Below, in pieces: positions 20,114-29,427 of a stretch of DNA of 64,000 bases (the stretch's first letter is position 1; each line of letters begins with the position of its first letter). The notes beneath the pieces were generated by a model. The model ran no database searches. It saw nothing but the letters and a program-made list of their open reading frames with translations, and was not told where the DNA came from. This DNA comes from Nostoc sp. GT001 (lineage in GTDB: Bacteria > Cyanobacteriota > Cyanobacteriia > Cyanobacteriales > Nostocaceae), in assembly GCF_030382115.1 (NCBI RefSeq), contig NZ_JAUDRJ010000003.1, positions 703,495-767,494 of the forward strand. The letters run 5' to 3'. The position numbers and the translations under genes were made by a program.

Positions 20114-21088
20114 ATGTCTTCTTCCCCTAACTCCTCAATTGTCTGTAATTTACCCCGTGTCACCATCGTGGGTGCGGGTAGGGTTGGTAGTACTTTAGCT
20201 CAACGTGTTGCAGAGAAAAACCTGGCAGATGTCGTTTTACTAGATATTATTGCGGGAATGCCTCAAGGTTTGGCGCTGGATTTGATGGAAGCCAGGGGAA
20301 TTGAAATACATAATCGCCAGATTATCGGCACAAATAATTATGCTGATACATCTGGTTCCCAAATCGTGGTGATTACCGCCGGACTTCCCCGCAAACCAGG
20401 GATGAGTCGGGATGATTTGCTGAAAACCAATGCCAAAATTGTGGTGGAAGCGGCAAAAAATGCGATCGCTCATTCTCCTAATGCTATTTTTATTGTTGTC
20501 ACCAACCCGTTGGATGTGATGACTTATTTAGCTTGGCAAGCAACTGGTTTACCACGCGATCGCATTATGGGTATGGCTGGTGTGTTAGATTCTGCCCGTT
20601 TTGAAACCTTCATTGCCCTAGAATTAGGCGTTTTACCTGCCGATGTCAAAGCGATGGTATTGGGTAGCCACGGCGATTTAATGGTTCCCTTGTCTCGTTA
20701 TGCTACCGTTAACGGCATTCCTATCACTGAATTGCTGGATGCAGCCACAATTGAACGCTTGGTAGAAAGAACTCGCAACGGTGGCGCAGAAATTGTGGAA
20801 TTGATGCAGACGGGTGGTGCTTTTTTTGCTCCGGCGTCGGCTACTAGTGTGATGGTAGAATCGATTTTATTAAATCAGTCGCGGTTGCTTCCTGTGGCGA
20901 CGTATCTGCAAGGTGAATACGGTTTAGAAGATGTTGTAATTGGTGTTCCCTGTCGGTTGGGATGCGGTGGAATTGAGAGTGTTTTGGAATTGACGCTGAC
21001 TGATGAAGAAAGAGAGGGCTTGCATACTTCGGCTCGATCTGTGCGTCAAAATATTGAGCGATCGCAGGAAATAATTTGTAATTCGTAA
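20114..21088 (+). CDS. mdh: Malate dehydrogenase (LDH-like type)
   Basis: A 324-residue NAD-dependent malate dehydrogenase of the lactate-dehydrogenase-like group, interconverting malate and oxaloacetate. The Rossmann motif is VGAGRVGST at about 19-27 with Asp at the end of the second strand (LLDI). The mobile loop carries substrate-binding arginines (GLPRKPGMSR). VTNPLDVMTYLAW and the catalytic-His motif GSHGD are intact. The gene is followed by a tRNA-arm-like hairpin that probably ends its transcript. Confidence 0.95.
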   Translation: MSSSPNSSIVCNLPRVTIVGAGRVGSTLAQRVAEKNLADVVLLDIIAGMPQGLALDLMEARGIEIHNRQIIGTNNYADTSGSQIVVITAGLPRKPGMSRDDLLKTNAKIVVEAAKNAIAHSPNAIFIVVTNPLDVMTYLAWQATGLPRDRIMGMAGVLDSARFETFIALELGVLPADVKAMVLGSHGDLMVPLSRYATVNGIPITELLDAATIERLVERTRNGGAEIVELMQTGGAFFAPASATSVMVESILLNQSRLLPVATYLQGEYGLEDVVIGVPCRLGCGGIESVLELTLTDEEREGLHTSARSVRQNIERSQEIICNS

Positions 21089-21201: not shown

Positions 21202-21534
21202 TTAGCGGCGAGAATCCTGATCTGCGGGGTCGCCGTAGGGATCTTCGCTGGCTGGACGGACATCACCAAACTCCCCTCTGTCTGCGGGGTCGCCGTAAGG
21301 GTCTTCGCTAGCTGGGCGAACATTGCCGTAAGACGAGATATCTGCGGGGTCGCCGTAAGGGTCTTCGCTAGCTGGGCGAACATTGCTGTAAGATGCCGGG
21401 TCTGCGGGATCGCCGTAGGGATCTTCGCTGGCTGGACGTACATTGCGATTGCGGAATTCGGCATCTTGATCGGCTTGATCGCTGTTCGATCCCAAAAGTA
21501 AGTCTTTCGCCTTTCGGAAAAATTCATTTACCAT
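21202..21534 (-). CDS. Small protein with four perfect 20-residue repeats
   Basis: A 110-residue protein. A 30-residue charged N-terminus (FFRKAKDLLLGSNS) is followed by four tandem 20-residue units, each with the invariant core VRPASEDPYGDPAD and a variable 5-residue linker. Its 240-base DNA is a 60-base repeat (21205-21444). There is no signal peptide or membrane segment. An AGGAGA ribosome site lies 8 bases before the ATG. The open frame in a second register is a by-product of the repeat. Function is unknown; the acidic Pro/Gly/Asp-rich repeat suggests a disordered or ligand-binding segment. Confidence 0.75.
   Translation of the reverse strand: MVNEFFRKAKDLLLGSNSDQADQDAEFRNRNVRPASEDPYGDPADPASYSNVRPASEDPYGDPADISSYGNVRPASEDPYGDPADRGEFGDVRPASEDPYGDPADQDSRR
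21205..21444 (-). repeat. Four 60-base tandem repeats
   Basis: Units share the string gtcgccgta with agggatcttcgc or agggtcttcgc, on the plus strand. The two central units are the most alike, suggesting recent duplication. Confidence 0.85.
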
Positions 21535-21624: not shown

Positions 21625-22113
21625 CTAGAGTGCTGGAGCTGCGGATGAAGTTATACCAGTTAGATCGCGACCTGTAGCACTCCGGTTATAACCTTGGAAT
21701 TCCCGATACTTTTGTGCTTCAGATTCTGGTACTCGAATTCCTTCTGATGGTGGCGTTACCCAGTGAGCGCGATGTTCAGCATCACGGTAATATACACGCC
21801 CGTTCTTGGATAGATAGTATTTACCTTGCGCTCCTTCTTGGGGAGCATTTTTATGCTGGTTGTACATATAGTAAAGTGCCGCAGCTCCCGCCAAAAGTGC
21901 CACTTTTTGCCCCGTACCCAATCCTTTCTTAACTTCGGTTTGGTTTGTGCGATCGCTCACTGTTCTACCAATGGTGTCATCTACTGGTGGTGGAACATTA
22001 GCCTTTTGGGAACCGCCTCCGCAGCTACTCAGCAAGGGCACCATTAACAATGCCGAAAGCAGCACTGCAAATAGACGCGAAACTATTTTACGTTCTTTAT
22101 ATATTGTGTTCAT
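21625..22113 (-). CDS. Predicted lipoprotein, unknown function
   Basis: A 162-residue protein with a type II signal peptide. A basic N-terminus and a hydrophobic stretch end in the lipobox LLSSC (Cys at about residue 31), followed by Gly-rich linker. A short hydrophobic segment (VALLAGAAALYYMYN) lies at about 70-85, and the C-terminal part has a YYLSKNGRVYYRD segment. It should be anchored by lipid after processing by Lgt. It is divergent from the ATPase-nuclease operon and on the same strand as the repeat protein. No named family recognised. Confidence 0.75.
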   Translation of the reverse strand: MNTIYKERKIVSRLFAVLLSALLMVPLLSSCGGGSQKANVPPPVDDTIGRTVSDRTNQTEVKKGLGTGQKVALLAGAAALYYMYNQHKNAPQEGAQGKYYLSKNGRVYYRDAEHRAHWVTPPSEGIRVPESEAQKYREFQGYNRSATGRDLTGITSSAAPAL

Positions 22114-22451: not shown

Positions 22452-23120
22452 ATGACATCAAAAAATACTAGTACTCGTCTTCTTTTGGCTTTGTGGGATT
22501 TGGGAGGAGTGCAGCAAGAAGTTAAGAAGGGTCAACTCACTAAGCGAATTGTATCCAAAAGCCAGAAGGTAGCAGATTATCAGGGCATATTCGAGGAATT
22601 ACAGAAGCAGGGTGCGATCGCAATTTCCAAAAAGGGATATTCTCTGACATCTGGCAAGGGTTTAGAGGCGTTGGGTGAGGGTTTGAGGAGCGGCGAGTTT
22701 AAGTTTGAAGGGACGATTGTCGGAACTTGGGCGGCGAATGCGTTGTTGCGGTGGATTAGTCAGATTGATGTTGCGGTAACTGGTGCAGATGTACTGGTTA
22801 ATGGTAACGGGGCGTTAGCGAAGCTTTCCAAAGGAATCGCGTCTTACAACGAGTTTAAATCAGTGGCGTTAGAAGTCTACGACAAGCTTAACCAAAACTA
22901 CAACCTAGATGATCTGGTGCCAATTTATCGCATCAGGAGAGAAATAGGCGATCGCATTAGTCGTTCCAATTTCAATGAATGGTTGTTAGAAATGCAGGCT
23001 AACGACATTTTGCAACTACAAGGCGGTAGCTTACCAGACAATGATCCAGCACAGATAGAAGATTCTATAACCACAGAAGTGAGCGGATTGCGCTGCTATG
23101 CCAAGCGTTTGAACTCATAA
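22452..23120 (+). CDS. Putative winged-helix protein, first gene of a three-gene operon
   Basis: A 222-residue protein of no family I recognise. Residues about 1-75 (LLLALWDLGGVQQEV through YSLTSGKGLEALGEGL) read like a winged-helix domain: a helix, a turn, then a strand pair around AISKKGYSLTS. A second predicted helical domain with ISRSNFNEWLLEMQANDILQLQGG near the C-terminus resembles another winged helix. There are no catalytic motifs, signal peptide or membrane helices. The gene precedes the ATPase by 67 bases on the same strand. A DNA-binding or adaptor role for the ATPase and nuclease is inferred from context. Confidence 0.7.
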   Translation: MTSKNTSTRLLLALWDLGGVQQEVKKGQLTKRIVSKSQKVADYQGIFEELQKQGAIAISKKGYSLTSGKGLEALGEGLRSGEFKFEGTIVGTWAANALLRWISQIDVAVTGADVLVNGNGALAKLSKGIASYNEFKSVALEVYDKLNQNYNLDDLVPIYRIRREIGDRISRSNFNEWLLEMQANDILQLQGGSLPDNDPAQIEDSITTEVSGLRCYAKRLNS

Positions 23121-23187
23121 ACCCAACTTTCTGAATACTTTTGATTCTTGAATTATCGCCATTCAATATCTGTCTCACACCAAATTT

Positions 23188-25083
23188 ATGAATAGCTCCT
23201 CATCTGCAATTACAGACATCACTAATGCCATTGCAAGCCAAAATCCTTTTGATAGACCTTTAGTAGTTAGAAGTCAAGATGTTTGGGGAAAGGGTTTTCC
23301 TGATGTACCTTCTTTAAATGCTCAGGTTTCAGATACTATTTTTGAAGCCATTGAGAAAGTTCGCCTTGGACAGCGCCACATCTTTGGTGTCACCATTACT
23401 GCTGAAAAAGGATTAGGCAAAAGCCACCTCATTAGTAGGATTAGACATCGCCTTCAGGCTGATGGGACTGCATTGTTTGTCTATATGAGTGAGTGCGCTG
23501 ACTTAAACCGAATTAAAACTGAATTTTTGCGGAATCTTGCTAATAGCCTTAAACAAATTGGTAGTCAAGGGGTAAGTCAATGGCGAGAATTAGCAACCGC
23601 TCTGATCAACGAAGCTTTCAACAAAAATCATACACCGCAACAACTTGTTAATCAATTCCCAGGAGCTTTGGCAAAAAATCCACGAGTTGTTGATATTTTG
23701 AGAGATAAGATACTATCAATCAAGCCTGATATCGAAAACCCTGATATTCTTACAGCTATAATATGGACACTTTCTCCTGATTCAGGTCATGAATCCTTTG
23801 CTATCAACTGGTTGTCTGGCAGGAACTTACCACAGTCGAAAGCAGACGAAATGGGTTTAGCAAATCCTAGTAACCAAGATAAAGAAGCAGAATCTTTTAC
23901 TACAATTCGTCAAATTCTTGATTTAATAGGGCGCTATAAACCAATAGTGATTTGTTTTGATGAATTAGATGTACCAGAATGTAATGAGGCAGGTTTTACT
24001 AAAGCACAAGTTGTTGCTGGTATAGCTAAGGATTTGTACAACAGCATTAAAAGTGGTGTTTTGCTAACAGCTATGTATGCTGAAACATGGGTTCATCAAG
24101 TCAAAGTCTTATCTTATGCTGAAGCAGTAGTAGATCGAATTGGTGAAAAAGTTCTGGAGTTAAAGTATCTCAACTCTGATGATGTTGTAACTTTAGTTGC
24201 TACGTGGTTAAAAGATTTTTATGATGAAAAAGGACTAACACCGCCGCACCTAGTATATCCTTTTGACGAAGATAAATTGAGAGAATTAGGAAAAGAAAGA
24301 CCTATTGTTAGAAGAGTATTAAAGTGGTGTGCCGAAAATTTTAAAGTTACTACAGAGCCACAACCTCTAATACCACCCAAGAACCCTGTAGAATCTGCTT
24401 ACATTAAAGAATTAGAGGGACTTGCAAGCACTATACAAGATTATATGGATGATAAAGTTGTGCTTGCTGATTCACTATGGTTAGGCTTTTCTGCACTAAT
24501 TGGAGAAACTATAGAAAAATTCAAAATTGAAGATATTACAGAAATTACAGCTAAAGCAGCTGATAAAGGATATCTAGACTTCAAAATCGTTGGCAAAGAA
24601 AATGGTAAAACAATCAAAATTGGAGTAGCTGTACTACAAGAATCAGGCGGAATGTTTGTTCAGGCAACATTGAAGCGATTAATTGATTACAAAAAGTTTG
24701 ATTTGACTCGTGGATGTTTAGTTCGTTCTAAGCAAGTTAATAAAGGTGCTGCTAAGGCTCAAGAATATCTAAGTCAGCTATTATCACCTAAACTAGGTGG
24801 AGAATGGGTATTGCTTAAAAGCGAAGATATAAAACCACTTTTAGCTATTTTATTAGTTTTTTATGCGCGTGAAGATTATGAATTTAGTGAAGAAGAAATA
24901 CTTGATTTTATTTACGAACACAAAATAGCAGTTGATAATTATCTTATTCGTGAAATTCTGAGTGATCCATCAGGGCAAGTTCCTCAAGATGCTATCAATG
25001 AAGAAACTGAGGGTAGTAACGTAACTCGATCAGAGATTACAAACACCATAAATGTTGATACAAATGATTTATTTCCGGGATAA
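23188..25083 (+). CDS. P-loop ATPase of a candidate defence operon
   Basis: A 631-residue ATPase. Walker A AEKGLGKSH lies at about residues 72-80 and Walker B VICFDELD at about 254-260 (D258, E259), an AAA/STAND-like arrangement. The C-terminal part (about 455-600), with LDFKIVGKENGKTIKIGVAVLQE and RGCLVRSKQV, looks like a restriction-endonuclease-like fold in which the acidic and Lys ligands are not fully preserved. No transmembrane segments are visible. The stop codon overlaps the next start by one base (TAATG at 25081-25085), a strong sign of translational coupling to the nuclease. The system is not one I can name. Confidence 0.8.
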   Translation: MNSSSSAITDITNAIASQNPFDRPLVVRSQDVWGKGFPDVPSLNAQVSDTIFEAIEKVRLGQRHIFGVTITAEKGLGKSHLISRIRHRLQADGTALFVYMSECADLNRIKTEFLRNLANSLKQIGSQGVSQWRELATALINEAFNKNHTPQQLVNQFPGALAKNPRVVDILRDKILSIKPDIENPDILTAIIWTLSPDSGHESFAINWLSGRNLPQSKADEMGLANPSNQDKEAESFTTIRQILDLIGRYKPIVICFDELDVPECNEAGFTKAQVVAGIAKDLYNSIKSGVLLTAMYAETWVHQVKVLSYAEAVVDRIGEKVLELKYLNSDDVVTLVATWLKDFYDEKGLTPPHLVYPFDEDKLRELGKERPIVRRVLKWCAENFKVTTEPQPLIPPKNPVESAYIKELEGLASTIQDYMDDKVVLADSLWLGFSALIGETIEKFKIEDITEITAKAADKGYLDFKIVGKENGKTIKIGVAVLQESGGMFVQATLKRLIDYKKFDLTRGCLVRSKQVNKGAAKAQEYLSQLLSPKLGGEWVLLKSEDIKPLLAILLVFYAREDYEFSEEEILDFIYEHKIAVDNYLIREILSDPSGQVPQDAINEETEGSNVTRSEITNTINVDTNDLFPG

Positions 25084-26663
25084 TGATTAATACCGCTTTA
25101 CGTTTACCAGCATCAGAAATTGAGGCATTGTTGCAAGGAAGAATAATTGCAGTAATGCCTAATAAATTTATTACTCTAGGGCGAGAATTTGCTCTTTGTC
25201 CAACAGACGCGTCAATTAATTTACTACCAGTTGAGCAGTACTATCGCCCAAGTTTTTTACCAATTGCTCAAAGTGCATTCACACAGCTAAATAGTGAGGG
25301 TGTTTTAATACAACCTCAGCAAATGAACTTACTTCCAGATGAGGAACAGTTAAAACTGCCCCTTCTAGCTTATAAAACAGCCTTGATAAAAGCTTGGGCG
25401 AGATGTGAGATGTGCCAAATTCTCAATAATGCTGAATCTTTAGCTTATTTATCACAGCTAACTATTTGGACGAAAGAAGGTTTACAGGAAATATTAACGC
25501 AACGTCAAAATATTTTCTTGGTATATCTGCGAGTATATCAGTTGCCTAAATCAATTGAAATTGCCGTAAATTCAAACAGCCAATTTATTCCTGTGCCACA
25601 GTTTATTAATGTTGCTGATACAAAACCAGTATTAAACGATCGCACCTTCGCCCAACGCAAGCATCAGTTAGAAAATCGACAGCCACCGCTGCATCCTGAA
25701 TTGGAAGAATTGCAGAGTGCGATCGCATCCCTAAGCATTAGCCAACCAGCAGCGAAACAATTAGACGACGATATCAAAGTATTTTTGGGTTGGAGTAGCG
25801 ATAAACCAACCAATTCATTAGATTTAGACTTACCTTGGATTCATAAAATTGCTGAAGTTGGAAACTCTAGCGACGGACATACATTTGAAAAATTGGTTCG
25901 TAGAGGATTACTAAAATTAGGCTTTACAGGTTCAGGTTTGAATCCAGATGCAATGGGTGGCGCAGGAGGCATGGATTTTTACGCTGAACAACCTTATCCA
26001 ATAGTAGGAGAGTGCAAAGCAACTAAAACTGAGAAAGTTCCTGATGGTACACCTGCACAGTTATTAAAAATAGGTATGAACCATCTTGGTAAATTTCAGT
26101 ATGACAATTCTATTAAATTAATTATAGCCGCCGGAGAATTAAATTTTTACGCATCAAGAACAGCTACCGAAAATCAAATGAATGTTATTAGCCCTGAAAC
26201 ACTACAAAAACTAGTTGAACTGCAAGCACACTACAAAAACTCTATCAACTTATTAGAACTAAAAGAGTGTTTGCAACAAGCTCCTTTTGGTTTAGCTGAA
26301 GATAAAATTAATATTTATATTGATAAAGTTGAACAATCTATAAGGTTGCGATCGCACATTGTTCAGCTTGTTAAAAACTATTTAGAAAACTCAGGTATAG
26401 AATCTGCTGGTGTTGAATCTCTACATGGTGCGTATTTTGGCTCACATCCGCTACAGCCAATCAAAACACCAGAAATGCACGAAATTCTGATAGAACTTTC
26501 CTCACCTTTAACAGGCTATTTAGGACGAATTAAAGGTAGTGATTGGAAAAGCGATCGCTTTACTTTCTCCGCGATTTACCTATTAACTAAATGTAGTAAA
26601 ATATATCTCTTTTCTTCTCTTCGCGCTCTTTGCATACTTTGCGGTTCGTTTCAAAATAACTAA
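25083..26663 (+). CDS. PD-(D/E)XK nuclease with DUF1802-like N-terminus
   Basis: A 526-residue protein. The region at about 110-165 (YKTALIKAWARCE, IWTKEGLQEIL, LVYLRVYQLP) resembles the DUF1802 family. The C-terminal half carries a nuclease core: GHTFEKLV (E269), GGAGGMDFY (D298) and VGECKATK (E310-C-K312), a Mrr/RecB-like order. The last 20 residues (FSSLRALCILCGSFQNN) come from DNA that looks like a dispersed spacer repeat, so the natural C-terminus may have been replaced. It is translated together with the ATPase (one-base overlap). DNA cleavage is inferred from motifs. Confidence 0.78.
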   Translation: MINTALRLPASEIEALLQGRIIAVMPNKFITLGREFALCPTDASINLLPVEQYYRPSFLPIAQSAFTQLNSEGVLIQPQQMNLLPDEEQLKLPLLAYKTALIKAWARCEMCQILNNAESLAYLSQLTIWTKEGLQEILTQRQNIFLVYLRVYQLPKSIEIAVNSNSQFIPVPQFINVADTKPVLNDRTFAQRKHQLENRQPPLHPELEELQSAIASLSISQPAAKQLDDDIKVFLGWSSDKPTNSLDLDLPWIHKIAEVGNSSDGHTFEKLVRRGLLKLGFTGSGLNPDAMGGAGGMDFYAEQPYPIVGECKATKTEKVPDGTPAQLLKIGMNHLGKFQYDNSIKLIIAAGELNFYASRTATENQMNVISPETLQKLVELQAHYKNSINLLELKECLQQAPFGLAEDKINIYIDKVEQSIRLRSHIVQLVKNYLENSGIESAGVESLHGAYFGSHPLQPIKTPEMHEILIELSSPLTGYLGRIKGSDWKSDRFTFSAIYLLTKCSKIYLFSSLRALCILCGSFQNN

Positions 26664-26972: not shown

Positions 26973-27632
26973 ATGTATTATCAAATTTGGAATTTCTTTC
27001 TTAAAGAAGATAAATACATTTATTGGAAAGAAAAAATAAAAGTTAACAAAAACTTTGACAAAGTTACATGGCAAAAAATTATTGATTTCTTGTCATTAGT
27101 AGAGCAAACTTTCCAGTTAAAAAGTCAACTAGCAGAAACCGATAGCCTTGAGCCGTTTCTAAAGTTAGCAACAGAAAACGGTTACAATTTGACCGCAGAA
27201 GAACTCGCCTGGTTTCTAGTTACGAGAAGACAGATTTGGGATCTTTTTGATTTTGCACAAAAAACGCCATCTCTCAAAGAAGAATTGCTAATAGCTAAAG
27301 ATCCACAGCAGTTTGTTGATATCGCTGCCGAAAACGGCTATTACTTTTCTGTAGATGAGTTAGCTTGGTTGTTAATTGAAATCAAATCATCTTCAGATTT
27401 AGTATCTATTAACAACAGTGTTGGAGAGATTCTCCCGGTCTCAAGCTACGGCAGAATTGAAATAGGATACTGGATTTGGCTAGCAGAACACTGGGGAATT
27501 GTGCCACCATTTTGTCATCGAGATAAACCCAGTACTTTCTTATGTCAAAATCTCAACAATCCTTTTTTACCCGATCGCTGTTTCTTACCCAAGAGTTACT
27601 TTAATCAACGCCTGATGGCAATTCATAATTAA
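26973..27632 (+). CDS. Protein with two tandem Nif11-like domains
   Basis: A 219-residue protein. Two copies of a Nif11-like helical unit can be aligned: SLEPFLKLATENGYNLTAEEL at about 54-74 and DPQQFVDIAAENGYYFSVDEL at about 110-130, each followed by an AWxL segment. Nif11-type domains occur as leaders of some ribosomal peptide natural products (nitrile hydratase-like/Nif11 leaders) and as free proteins in nitrogen-fixing cyanobacteria. There is no GG cleavage site and the C-terminal 75 residues are not core-peptide-like, so a precursor role is doubtful. No modification enzymes are nearby. Confidence 0.7.
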   Translation: MYYQIWNFFLKEDKYIYWKEKIKVNKNFDKVTWQKIIDFLSLVEQTFQLKSQLAETDSLEPFLKLATENGYNLTAEELAWFLVTRRQIWDLFDFAQKTPSLKEELLIAKDPQQFVDIAAENGYYFSVDELAWLLIEIKSSSDLVSINNSVGEILPVSSYGRIEIGYWIWLAEHWGIVPPFCHRDKPSTFLCQNLNNPFLPDRCFLPKSYFNQRLMAIHN

Positions 27633-27840: not shown

Positions 27841-29427
27841 TCAGCTAGCAGAAACGGTCAAACTACCGGGTTTCTGAAGATCGCCTTGTAAAACTACACC
27901 CCGCTGATTGGCATGGATGTGACGCAAAATCTTGTAAATTGCCTCAACTTGGTCTGATGCGCCTGCCTTCTCGGCGAGTTCGTCAAGAGTAAGGGGAGTT
28001 TTTTCTTTTTGTAGCACTGCTACTACTCGTGTTTGTAAATCGAGAATGGAGGCGGCAGCTTTTTTGCCAGCTTCTACTCCTGGTTGATGGTACGCGTTGA
28101 CGTTGACCAAACTAGCATATAAACCAACAGCACGTTCGTACAAAGCAATTAATGCCCCTACAGTTCGGGGATTAACTTGGGGAATCGTGACTGTAATCGA
28201 ATCGCGGTGATTTTCATAAAGCGCTTGTCGGGTTCCTTGGAGAAAACCGGAAAGATAATCGCCTGATGTAACTCCTGGATCTATTTCAGTGGATGGGCCT
28301 TGACGATCTTCCAACACTTCGATGAAGGTAGCAAAGAAATTCGCTACACCCTCGCGTAACTGCTGGACATAAGCGTGTTGATCTGTTGAGCCTTTGTTAC
28401 CATAAACGGCTATACCTTGATGGACAACGTTGCCGTCTAAGTCTTTTTCCTTGCCCAAGGATTCCATCACCAGCTGTTGCAAATAGCGACTGAATAAAAA
28501 TAAGCTGTCCTTGTAAGGTAGAACAACCATATCTTTTTCGCCCTTTCCATTACCTGCAAAGTACCAAGACAAAGCAAGCAAGGCTGCTGGGTTATTTTTT
28601 ACATCTGGGACGCGGGTAGCGTCATCCATCTCTTTTGCGCCATCTAGCATAGCGCGAACATCAATCCCTTGTAATGCGGCTGGTACTAGCCCCACAGCAG
28701 ACATTTCTGAGGTGCGTCCTCCTACCCAGTCATACATCGGAAATCTGGCCAGCCAGCCTTCCTCTTTGGCCAGCTTATCGAGGTTGCTATCAACGCTGGT
28801 AATTGCTACCGCATATTGAGCAAATTCCAAATTGTGTCCGGCGTATGCTTTTTTAACTTCAATCATGCCGTTGCGAGGTTCTGGTGTTCCTCCAGATTTG
28901 GAGATTACCAAAACCAAAGTGCTGGCGAGGCTATTTCGGAGATGATTGATAACGCGATCGATACCTGCGGGATCGTTGTTATCGATAAAGTGAAGTTTCA
29001 GGGGTGGGAAATCAGGAGCGAGAGCTTCCGCGACAAATTGGGGGCCGAGAGCGGAACCACCAATACCAATGGAGATAATATCCGTGAAGCGGCTTGCTCT
29101 GGGAGGATGAATAGCACCTGTTTGGACTTTTTCCGCAAAGGCTTCGATTAGTTCTAAGGTTTGGACTATTTCTTGTGTAAGTTCTGGAGCTGGCGCTAAA
29201 TCAGGATTTCGCAGCCAGTAATGTCCAACCATGCGGTTCTCGTCGGGATTTGCGATCGCACCCTTCTCCAGTTGAGCCATATCCGCAAACGCCTTCTCAA
29301 ACTTCGGCCGCAACGAATCCACGAAGGCATCATCGAACCGCATTCGACTGATGTCTAAGTACAGTCCCAATCCCTCGTGGAAATATAACCAGTTTTGGTA
29401 TCGTTGCCAAAGTGCCCTAGCATCCAT
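27841..29427 (-). CDS. pgi: Glucose-6-phosphate isomerase
   Basis: A 528-residue phosphoglucose isomerase that interconverts glucose-6-phosphate and fructose-6-phosphate in glycolysis, the oxidative pentose pathway and glycogen metabolism. The sugar-isomerase motifs are visible: [25 protein letters not shown], and the late [12 protein letters not shown] with its catalytic His. Length agrees with cyanobacterial Pgi (somewhat shorter than E. coli). Start ATG 29427 gives [11 protein letters not shown]. Confidence 0.97.

Follow-up and report, generated by a model that had tools for sequence, protein, structure and literature searches.

Mosaic exchange of alleles within a conserved ATPase–nuclease gene trio at a frequent chromosomal address in Nostocaceae

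Gene organization of the trio

The DNA analysed here (hereafter designated the window) is a 64,000-nucleotide stretch of Nostoc sp. GT001, in which three adjoining genes, designated p1, p2, and p3, encode a predicted winged-helix protein, a predicted AAA+ ATPase, and a protein combining a DUF1802 part with an Mrr-like PD-(D/E)XK nuclease domain (Table 1). An earlier note on this DNA had described three consecutive genes on one strand, a one-base overlap of the last two (TAATG), the motifs AEKGLGKSH and VICFDELD in the ATPase, the residues E269, D298, E310, and K312 in the nuclease protein, and a setting between mdh and pgi, beside a repeat protein and a lipoprotein; all of these were found as described, the three genes lying on the forward strand with mdh, the repeat protein, and the lipoprotein to their left and pgi to their right. 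The guanine-plus-cytosine (G+C) content is ~36% in p2–p3 as against 44–46% on both sides. Comparison with related loci revealed that alleles are exchanged as a mosaic inside the trio while the neighbouring genes follow the species.

Table 1 Features of the trio and its surroundings in the window (aa, amino acid residues).
Feature	Position	Strand	Description
p1	22452-23120	+	222 aa
p2	23188-25083	+	631 aa
p3	25083-26663	+	526 aa
mdh	20114-21088	+	left anchor of the conserved address
repeat protein	21202-21534	-	left neighbour, frequent at the site
lipoprotein-like gene	21625-22113	-	left neighbour, frequent at the site
two-domain Nif11 protein	26973-27632	+	right neighbour, frequent at the site
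pgi	27841-29427	-	right anchor of the conserved address
exchange block 1	22900-25700	+	end of p1, whole p2, and DUF1802 part of p3
exchange block 2	25860-26222	+	nuclease domain of p3, residues ~260-380

Domain composition and conservation of the trio proteins

The p1 protein is predicted to fold into an N-terminal winged helix (residues ~1–85) and a second helix–strand unit (residues ~132–220); no family match was obtained for it in Pfam, PADLOC, NCBIfam, or PHROGs. Residues ~13–392 of p2 are modelled as an AAA+ ATPase of the ORC/Cdc6-TnsC-MuB type; in Pfam, AAA_16 (3.8e-07) fell just below its cut-off and KAP_NTPase (0.00013) just over it, and the NCBIfam matches were all far below theirs. 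For residues ~420–545, a PD-(D/E)XK-like fold whose active site is degenerate is suggested by the order in which helices and strands are predicted. When conservation was counted in the 85 of 96 p2 open reading frames (ORFs) with at least 560 residues, the Walker A residues G75 and K78 were identical in 85/85, and the Walker B residues D258 and E259 were kept in 84 and 75, respectively; a glutamine replaces E259 in nine sequences, every one of them belonging to class C of the three p2 classes A, B, and C (31, 18, and 3 loci, respectively, in the 52-locus comparison below). This substitution was seen in 9 of the 10 class C rows (e.g., L104, L105, and L116), and such proteins may bind adenosine triphosphate (ATP) without hydrolysing it. 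The window's own genome contains a single copy of p2.

In p3, residues 5–195 correspond to DUF1802 (Pfam, 1.9e-27), followed by a linker, the Mrr-like PD-(D/E)XK nuclease, and a C-terminal part. The match of the nuclease to Mrr_cat was weak (0.013, below the Pfam cut-off), and p3 had no match in NCBIfam. The conserved E, D, and ExK core is present, E269, D298, E310, and K312 being invariant in 89/89 rows of at least 430 residues (from 94 ORFs, with the duplicate loci L072 and L073 dropped and 5 shorter ones excluded). A second, stand-alone DUF1802 gene occurs elsewhere in the window's own genome (G000:C3:1687735-1688256, in an open frame of 199 residues), and it is nearer to the Pfam model than p3 (248.6 versus 93.7 bits). 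Medians of the ratio of nonsynonymous to synonymous substitution rates (dN/dS) were low over six segments of the trio (0.11–0.21; nuclease, 0.11; AAA+, 0.14), and its parts are therefore maintained.

The last ~30 residues of p3 in the window (26530–26663) are unlike those of 30 aligned relatives, and relatives with the usual ending exist. Insertion of a repeat at the 3′ end was suspected, since the odd tail matched DNA following p3 in L029 and L053, and was ruled out: in L061, the same DNA can be aligned across the p3 end and past it (89.6% identity, the lengths differing by one base), and only four other matches, short and weak, occur in the window's own genome.

Distribution and chromosomal address

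A p2 match at an expectation value (E) ≤ 1e-3 was found in 164 of the 192 genomes of the window's family. The best E was above 1e-25 in 22 of these 164, which may be other ATPases; with the 22 set aside, a close p2 match is therefore present in about 142/192 family genomes. In a sample of the phylum, p3 (E ≤ 1e-30) occurred in 39 of 244 cyanobacteria and was adjoined by p1 and p2 in 37 of the 39, the other two (G145 and G153) being pieces at contig ends. Conversely, p1 was found without p3 in some genomes of this sample (e.g., G302), and so were p2-like genes (G193, G249, and G373).

All three genes were present in 53 of 56 loci of a first set (L001 being the window), and the remaining three (L032, L047, and L049) start inside p2 at the end of the locus. 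A second set of 60 Nostocaceae loci, overlapping the first (many of the same places, with longer flanks), contained all three genes in 60/60, some being broken or cut by the contig end (e.g., L076, L108, L113, and L114). The combination singled out in the earlier note, an ATPase, a nuclease with an intact site, and a winged-helix protein, is therefore a conserved, near-obligate trio. Tandem copies of the trio were found in L035, L046, and L097–L100. An additional p1-like protein lies upstream in L097 (L097:13803-14852), L098 (near 4474), and L099 (near 4156), that of L097 having a long lysine-rich N-terminus.

The left side of the locus was defined as mraY-pap-fpg-psaE-mdh-repeat-lipoprotein and the right side as pgi-livM. 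Both sides were recognized in 32 of the 60 Nostocaceae loci, one side in 21, and neither in 7, some of which are on short contigs; among the last, L101 belongs to a genome with two copies and is the second of them, the other (L102) standing at pgi. Among 26 named loci, the corresponding numbers were 11, 8, and 7, and the seven without either side came from Leptolyngbya, Oscillatoria (two), Symploca, Spirulina, Trichocoleus, and an Oscillatoriales genome. Other families carry the trio as well, at sites different from this one. The earlier description of the surroundings as an accessory island is misleading for Nostocaceae, because the trio there often holds a conserved chromosomal address.

Exchange of alleles within the trio

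When the window was compared with L042, L053, and L054 (the last being Nostoc sp. NMS9, whose matched flank proteins are 93–98% identical to those of the window and thereby put it in or near Nostoc), the flank DNA was mostly 85–97% identical, except where L053 and L054 lack mdh at this position. Over block 1, identity was ~48–73%: ~50–60% from ~22,900 through p2, and 66–73% in the first part of p3. It returned to 90–95% at 25,700 inside p3 in L042 and L053, and only near 26,450 in L054.

Rank correlations of segment identity with flank identity were calculated for 52 loci (54 minus the duplicate genomes L072 and L073). Control flank genes each followed the other flank genes closely (rho, 0.87–0.93). 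For p1, rho fell from 0.78 (residues 1–100) through 0.62 (127–184) to 0.15 (185–222); for p2, it was only 0.14 (40–390) and 0.05 (400–600); for p3, it was 0.37 (1–195), 0.58 (196–255), −0.08 (262–380), and 0.32 (381–460). Between segments, p1 residues 185–222 followed p2 residues 40–390 (rho, 0.85), which in turn followed p3 residues 1–195 partially (0.57) and p3 residues 262–380 hardly at all (0.05). Residues 1–140 of p1 track the species, and residues ~181–222 track p2. In steps of 20 residues, the switch points lay at ~181 of p1 (with a shoulder from 141) and at ~181, ~245, and ~420 of p3.

On the flank tree, the p2 class required 17 changes, and shuffled classes required 17.7 on average (130/300 shuffles needed no more than 17). 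The corresponding values were 13 and 14.5 (71/300 shuffles) for the nuclease subtypes, of which there are two, with 35 and 17 loci, and 17 and 15.6 for the tail subtypes, assigned by a crude pattern. Among the 54 loci (including the two duplicate genomes), 113 pairs have flanks at least 95% identical, and 55 of them differ in p2 class. L066 has flanks 98% identical to those of the window, yet a p2 only 56% identical, and the nearest p2 among these loci (75%) is that of L077, a member of another genus with flanks of 80%.

Pairs whose segment identity exceeded the flank identity by more than 5 points were counted as well (1262 pairs compared): there were 68 such pairs for p1 residues 185–222, 58 for the nuclease domain, 9 for AAA+, 2 for p2 residues 400–600, and 0 each for p1 residues 1–100, p3 residues 1–195, and p3 residues 381–495. 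Part of the nuclease excess could come from slow change of this domain, and L104, which has low flank identities all along, takes part in several of its pairs. In the cleanest case, that of L045 (class B) and L081 (class A), flanks of 82.7% protein identity accompany nuclease domains of 96% identity in protein and 94.9% in DNA (third positions, 88.8%). The exchange of block 2, the nuclease domain of p3, is tied neither to p2 nor to the species.

Comparison with known systems

Several known systems were compared with the trio. In McrBC-like restriction, an AAA+ motor and a PD-(D/E)XK nuclease are encoded by adjacent genes. The trio shares this division of labour, but p1–p3 gave no McrB, McrC, or methyl-reader match (Pfam and PADLOC), the AAA+ type looks different, and a winged-helix partner is added. 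In RADAR, the partner of the ATPase RdrA is the deaminase RdrB, whereas that of p2 is a nuclease, and no PADLOC match was obtained. The trio unit also differs from Tn7-type selectors (TnsA/TnsC) and MuB in containing no transposase and no TnsB, and p3, made of DUF1802 and an Mrr-like domain, had no TnsA match in Pfam; in L091, p1 and p2 are separated by a DDE gene, which was inserted in that single locus. In type I restriction, hsdS is shuffled through exchangeable recognition segments flanked by conserved segments within the gene, and the trio genes likewise have conserved segments around exchangeable ones. However, the trio contains neither a methyltransferase nor an S subunit, and what is exchanged is the ATPase with its partner's tail, and the nuclease domain.

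The closest published pattern found is that of the homeocassettes of Halorubrum ezzemoulense, which are described as homologous but divergent sets of genes lying between the same core genes, with nearly identical neighbours, apparently swapped by homologous recombination (PMC11078007). The trio locus has all three defining features: alternative gene sets between the same core genes, divergent homologues with near-identical neighbours (the 55 of 113 pairs above), and divergent homologues making up at least half of the gene content, here all three genes. It differs in that the exchange units can be smaller than a gene and form at least two independent modules, within one ATPase–nuclease operon in Cyanobacteria. 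A whole-island version of the pattern has been described for a haloarchaeon (PMC11078007), and the sub-gene modules of the trio appear to go beyond it.

Occupants of trio-less sites and neighbourhoods elsewhere

No p2 match was found in 28 of the 192 family genomes. Twenty of these were examined; 7 keep both flanks, and 13 were unreadable. Four of the seven readable sites hold defence-like genes. A retron-type reverse transcriptase occupies those of L119 (2936-5451) and L121 (9372-11683), from two genera, with RT-Protease_XI as the best PADLOC model (E, 3e-139 and 1.1e-137, respectively), and those of L120 and L127 hold PDC-S28, a candidate defence helicase (2.8e-281 and 2.3e-276). The reverse transcriptase of L119 is next to a Schlafen AlbA_2-TPR protein, and a similar one occurs in L121. 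Of the other three, L126 holds transporter-like genes (judged by eye), and L124 and L125 hold little beyond the Nif11 gene and small ORFs. Remnants of p1 with 93–140 residues persist in L119, L120, and L126; what is left of p3 is a tail in each of L125, L126, and L127. Seven sites make a small sample.

Outside Nostocaceae, neighbours of the trio were compared with PADLOC families using 90 of 154 ORFs of at least 150 residues from 19 loci (L180, L184, L186, and L187 wholly excluded), and the control consisted of 90 of 173 ORFs from 17 loci at arbitrarily chosen positions in the same phylum (few from L199–L204 and none from L202). Neither set is a random draw, and 25 families are named in each table.

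Proposed function and alternatives

The best fit to these data, at a probability of about 0.6, is that the trio protects against mobile DNA as a defence of the restriction-like or abortive type with exchangeable modules. The earlier note had proposed DNA-targeting immunity, and this holds in part: the swapping of alleles and some occupants of trio-less sites (the reverse transcriptase and PDC-S28) point to genetic conflict, whereas an enriched neighbourhood was not found. Defence is something we infer, because PADLOC and PHROGs gave no match and the neighbours outside Nostocaceae are not enriched.

Several results weigh against defence. In contrast to defence systems of patchy occurrence, the trio is common in the family (~142/192) and often stands at one site, and three of the seven readable trio-less sites hold no defence-like genes. 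The 90 neighbour ORFs outside Nostocaceae yielded 47 PADLOC families as compared with 59 from the 90 control ORFs, that is, no enrichment. This neighbourhood was dropped as support, and the check for co-occurrence in defence islands was negative, the Nostocaceae site being flanked by housekeeping genes. Moreover, the control set had clear defence matches, such as a type IV restriction enzyme (3.9e-90), and defence genes are therefore a common background, which weakens the evidence of the four trio-less sites. No match was found in phages with p3, the sole query, in viral contigs with p2 and p3, or in plasmids with p1 and p3; p2 matched two plasmids only, weakly, with 22–23% identity over about half of its length. 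In PADLOC-DB 2.0 (the library of 2023; E ≤ 1), none of p1, p2, p3, and the Nif11 gene matched any model (0/4); none of the trio proteins matched PHROGs (0/3), and none had an NCBIfam match over the cut-off. These empty searches agree with the earlier statement that the trio could not be matched to a named defence system. We know of no anti-phage phenotype of the trio. Sequence searches of the PDB gave YTH, nickel-binding, and elongation-factor entries, which were taken as chance, and no credible relative; the absence of a family from fold lists does not exclude that family. No description of such a system was found in the literature searches made, and DUF1802 was met there in one paper, on soil gene networks.

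The prevalence and the frequent address beside housekeeping genes would also suit a machine for genome maintenance or the uptake of DNA (in repair, recombination, or natural transformation) with fast-drifting partners, exchange being a by-product of a recombination-prone stretch, and the ORC/Cdc6-type AAA+ fold predicted for p2 and the purifying selection agree with it. We consider this improbable: the neighbours on both sides show no exchange (rho, 0.87–0.93), the switches inside p1 and p3 and the independent modules are hard to square with locus-wide recombination, and the trio has been lost, broken, or replaced in several genomes.

Polymorphic discrimination loci have a high allele diversity, and the many alleles of the trio at one address, with no phylogenetic signal, recall a kin-recognition or competition locus, in which strains would be marked by their alleles and the nuclease would be directed at the DNA of non-self relatives or at incoming conjugative DNA. 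Such a role is, in our judgment, more doubtful still, as the conserved unit comprises the three genes only, no recurring delivery or immunity gene was seen in the loci read (no search for secretion signals was made), and the trio stands at other sites in other families. About as small a chance is given to a selfish, addictive element of the restriction type, which would persist because its loss harms the cell and would bring the host no net benefit; the invariant nuclease active site and the tandem copies speak for it, and against it are the loss of the trio from the L124 site, and from L125 except for the p3 tail, and the lack of a modification enzyme in the conserved unit.

Under the defence reading, p1 would bind DNA or an adaptor through its predicted winged helix, and p2 might form an AAA+ ring on DNA like ORC, TnsC, or MuB. 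The co-inherited p2 and p1 end would choose the target; because the p1 tail is inherited together with p2, contact between them and a joint setting of the trigger are suggested. The partial co-inheritance of the DUF1802 part with p2 is consistent with p3 being held to p2 through this part, and p3, with its intact and invariant active site, would cleave DNA. In Nostocaceae, the operon mostly stays at one address, and its inner modules are replaced by alleles from other species. It would thereby be re-armed by homologous recombination, for which the upstream DNA, most of p1, the p3 linker, and the pgi side may serve as arms, possibly with phages or plasmids as the selecting agents. Evasion of phage inhibitors could account for the independent turnover of the nuclease domain.

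A fuller statement, whose odds in our view fall slightly short of even, is that the trio represents a new cyanobacterial immune-type system at one Nostocaceae address, with a diversification resembling that of polymorphic immune loci: recombination in conserved intragenic segments would reassort the modules for recognition (p1 tail and p2) and for killing (p3 nuclease) independently of each other, so that close relatives differ in their combination. If so, an immune-type operon undergoes modular sub-gene exchange at a fixed address, many Nostocaceae have an undescribed nuclease-based system, and its specificity parts can be read from natural recombinants, which would be a ready experiment on the protein segment that senses invaders.

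Other observations

A p2-like ATPase (636 residues) without p3 was found in three genomes, L184 (6390-16082), L186, and L187. Beside it in L184 are genes for a von Willebrand A protein (201 residues) and an unassigned protein of 224 residues, and folP-, rnhA-, and glycosyltransferase-like genes; this setting is possibly a second use of such an ATPase. The small repeat protein on the left of the trio in the window has repeats of the ASEDPYGDPAD type and stands at the site in many Nostocaceae loci. In addition, a small retropepsin-like gene (120 residues) occurs in 40/106 loci, sometimes in three tandem copies and often with a partner of ~105 residues (by eye), for example, in L071:12275 (a weak gag-asp_proteas match), L102:4109-5910, and L105:4624-6436.

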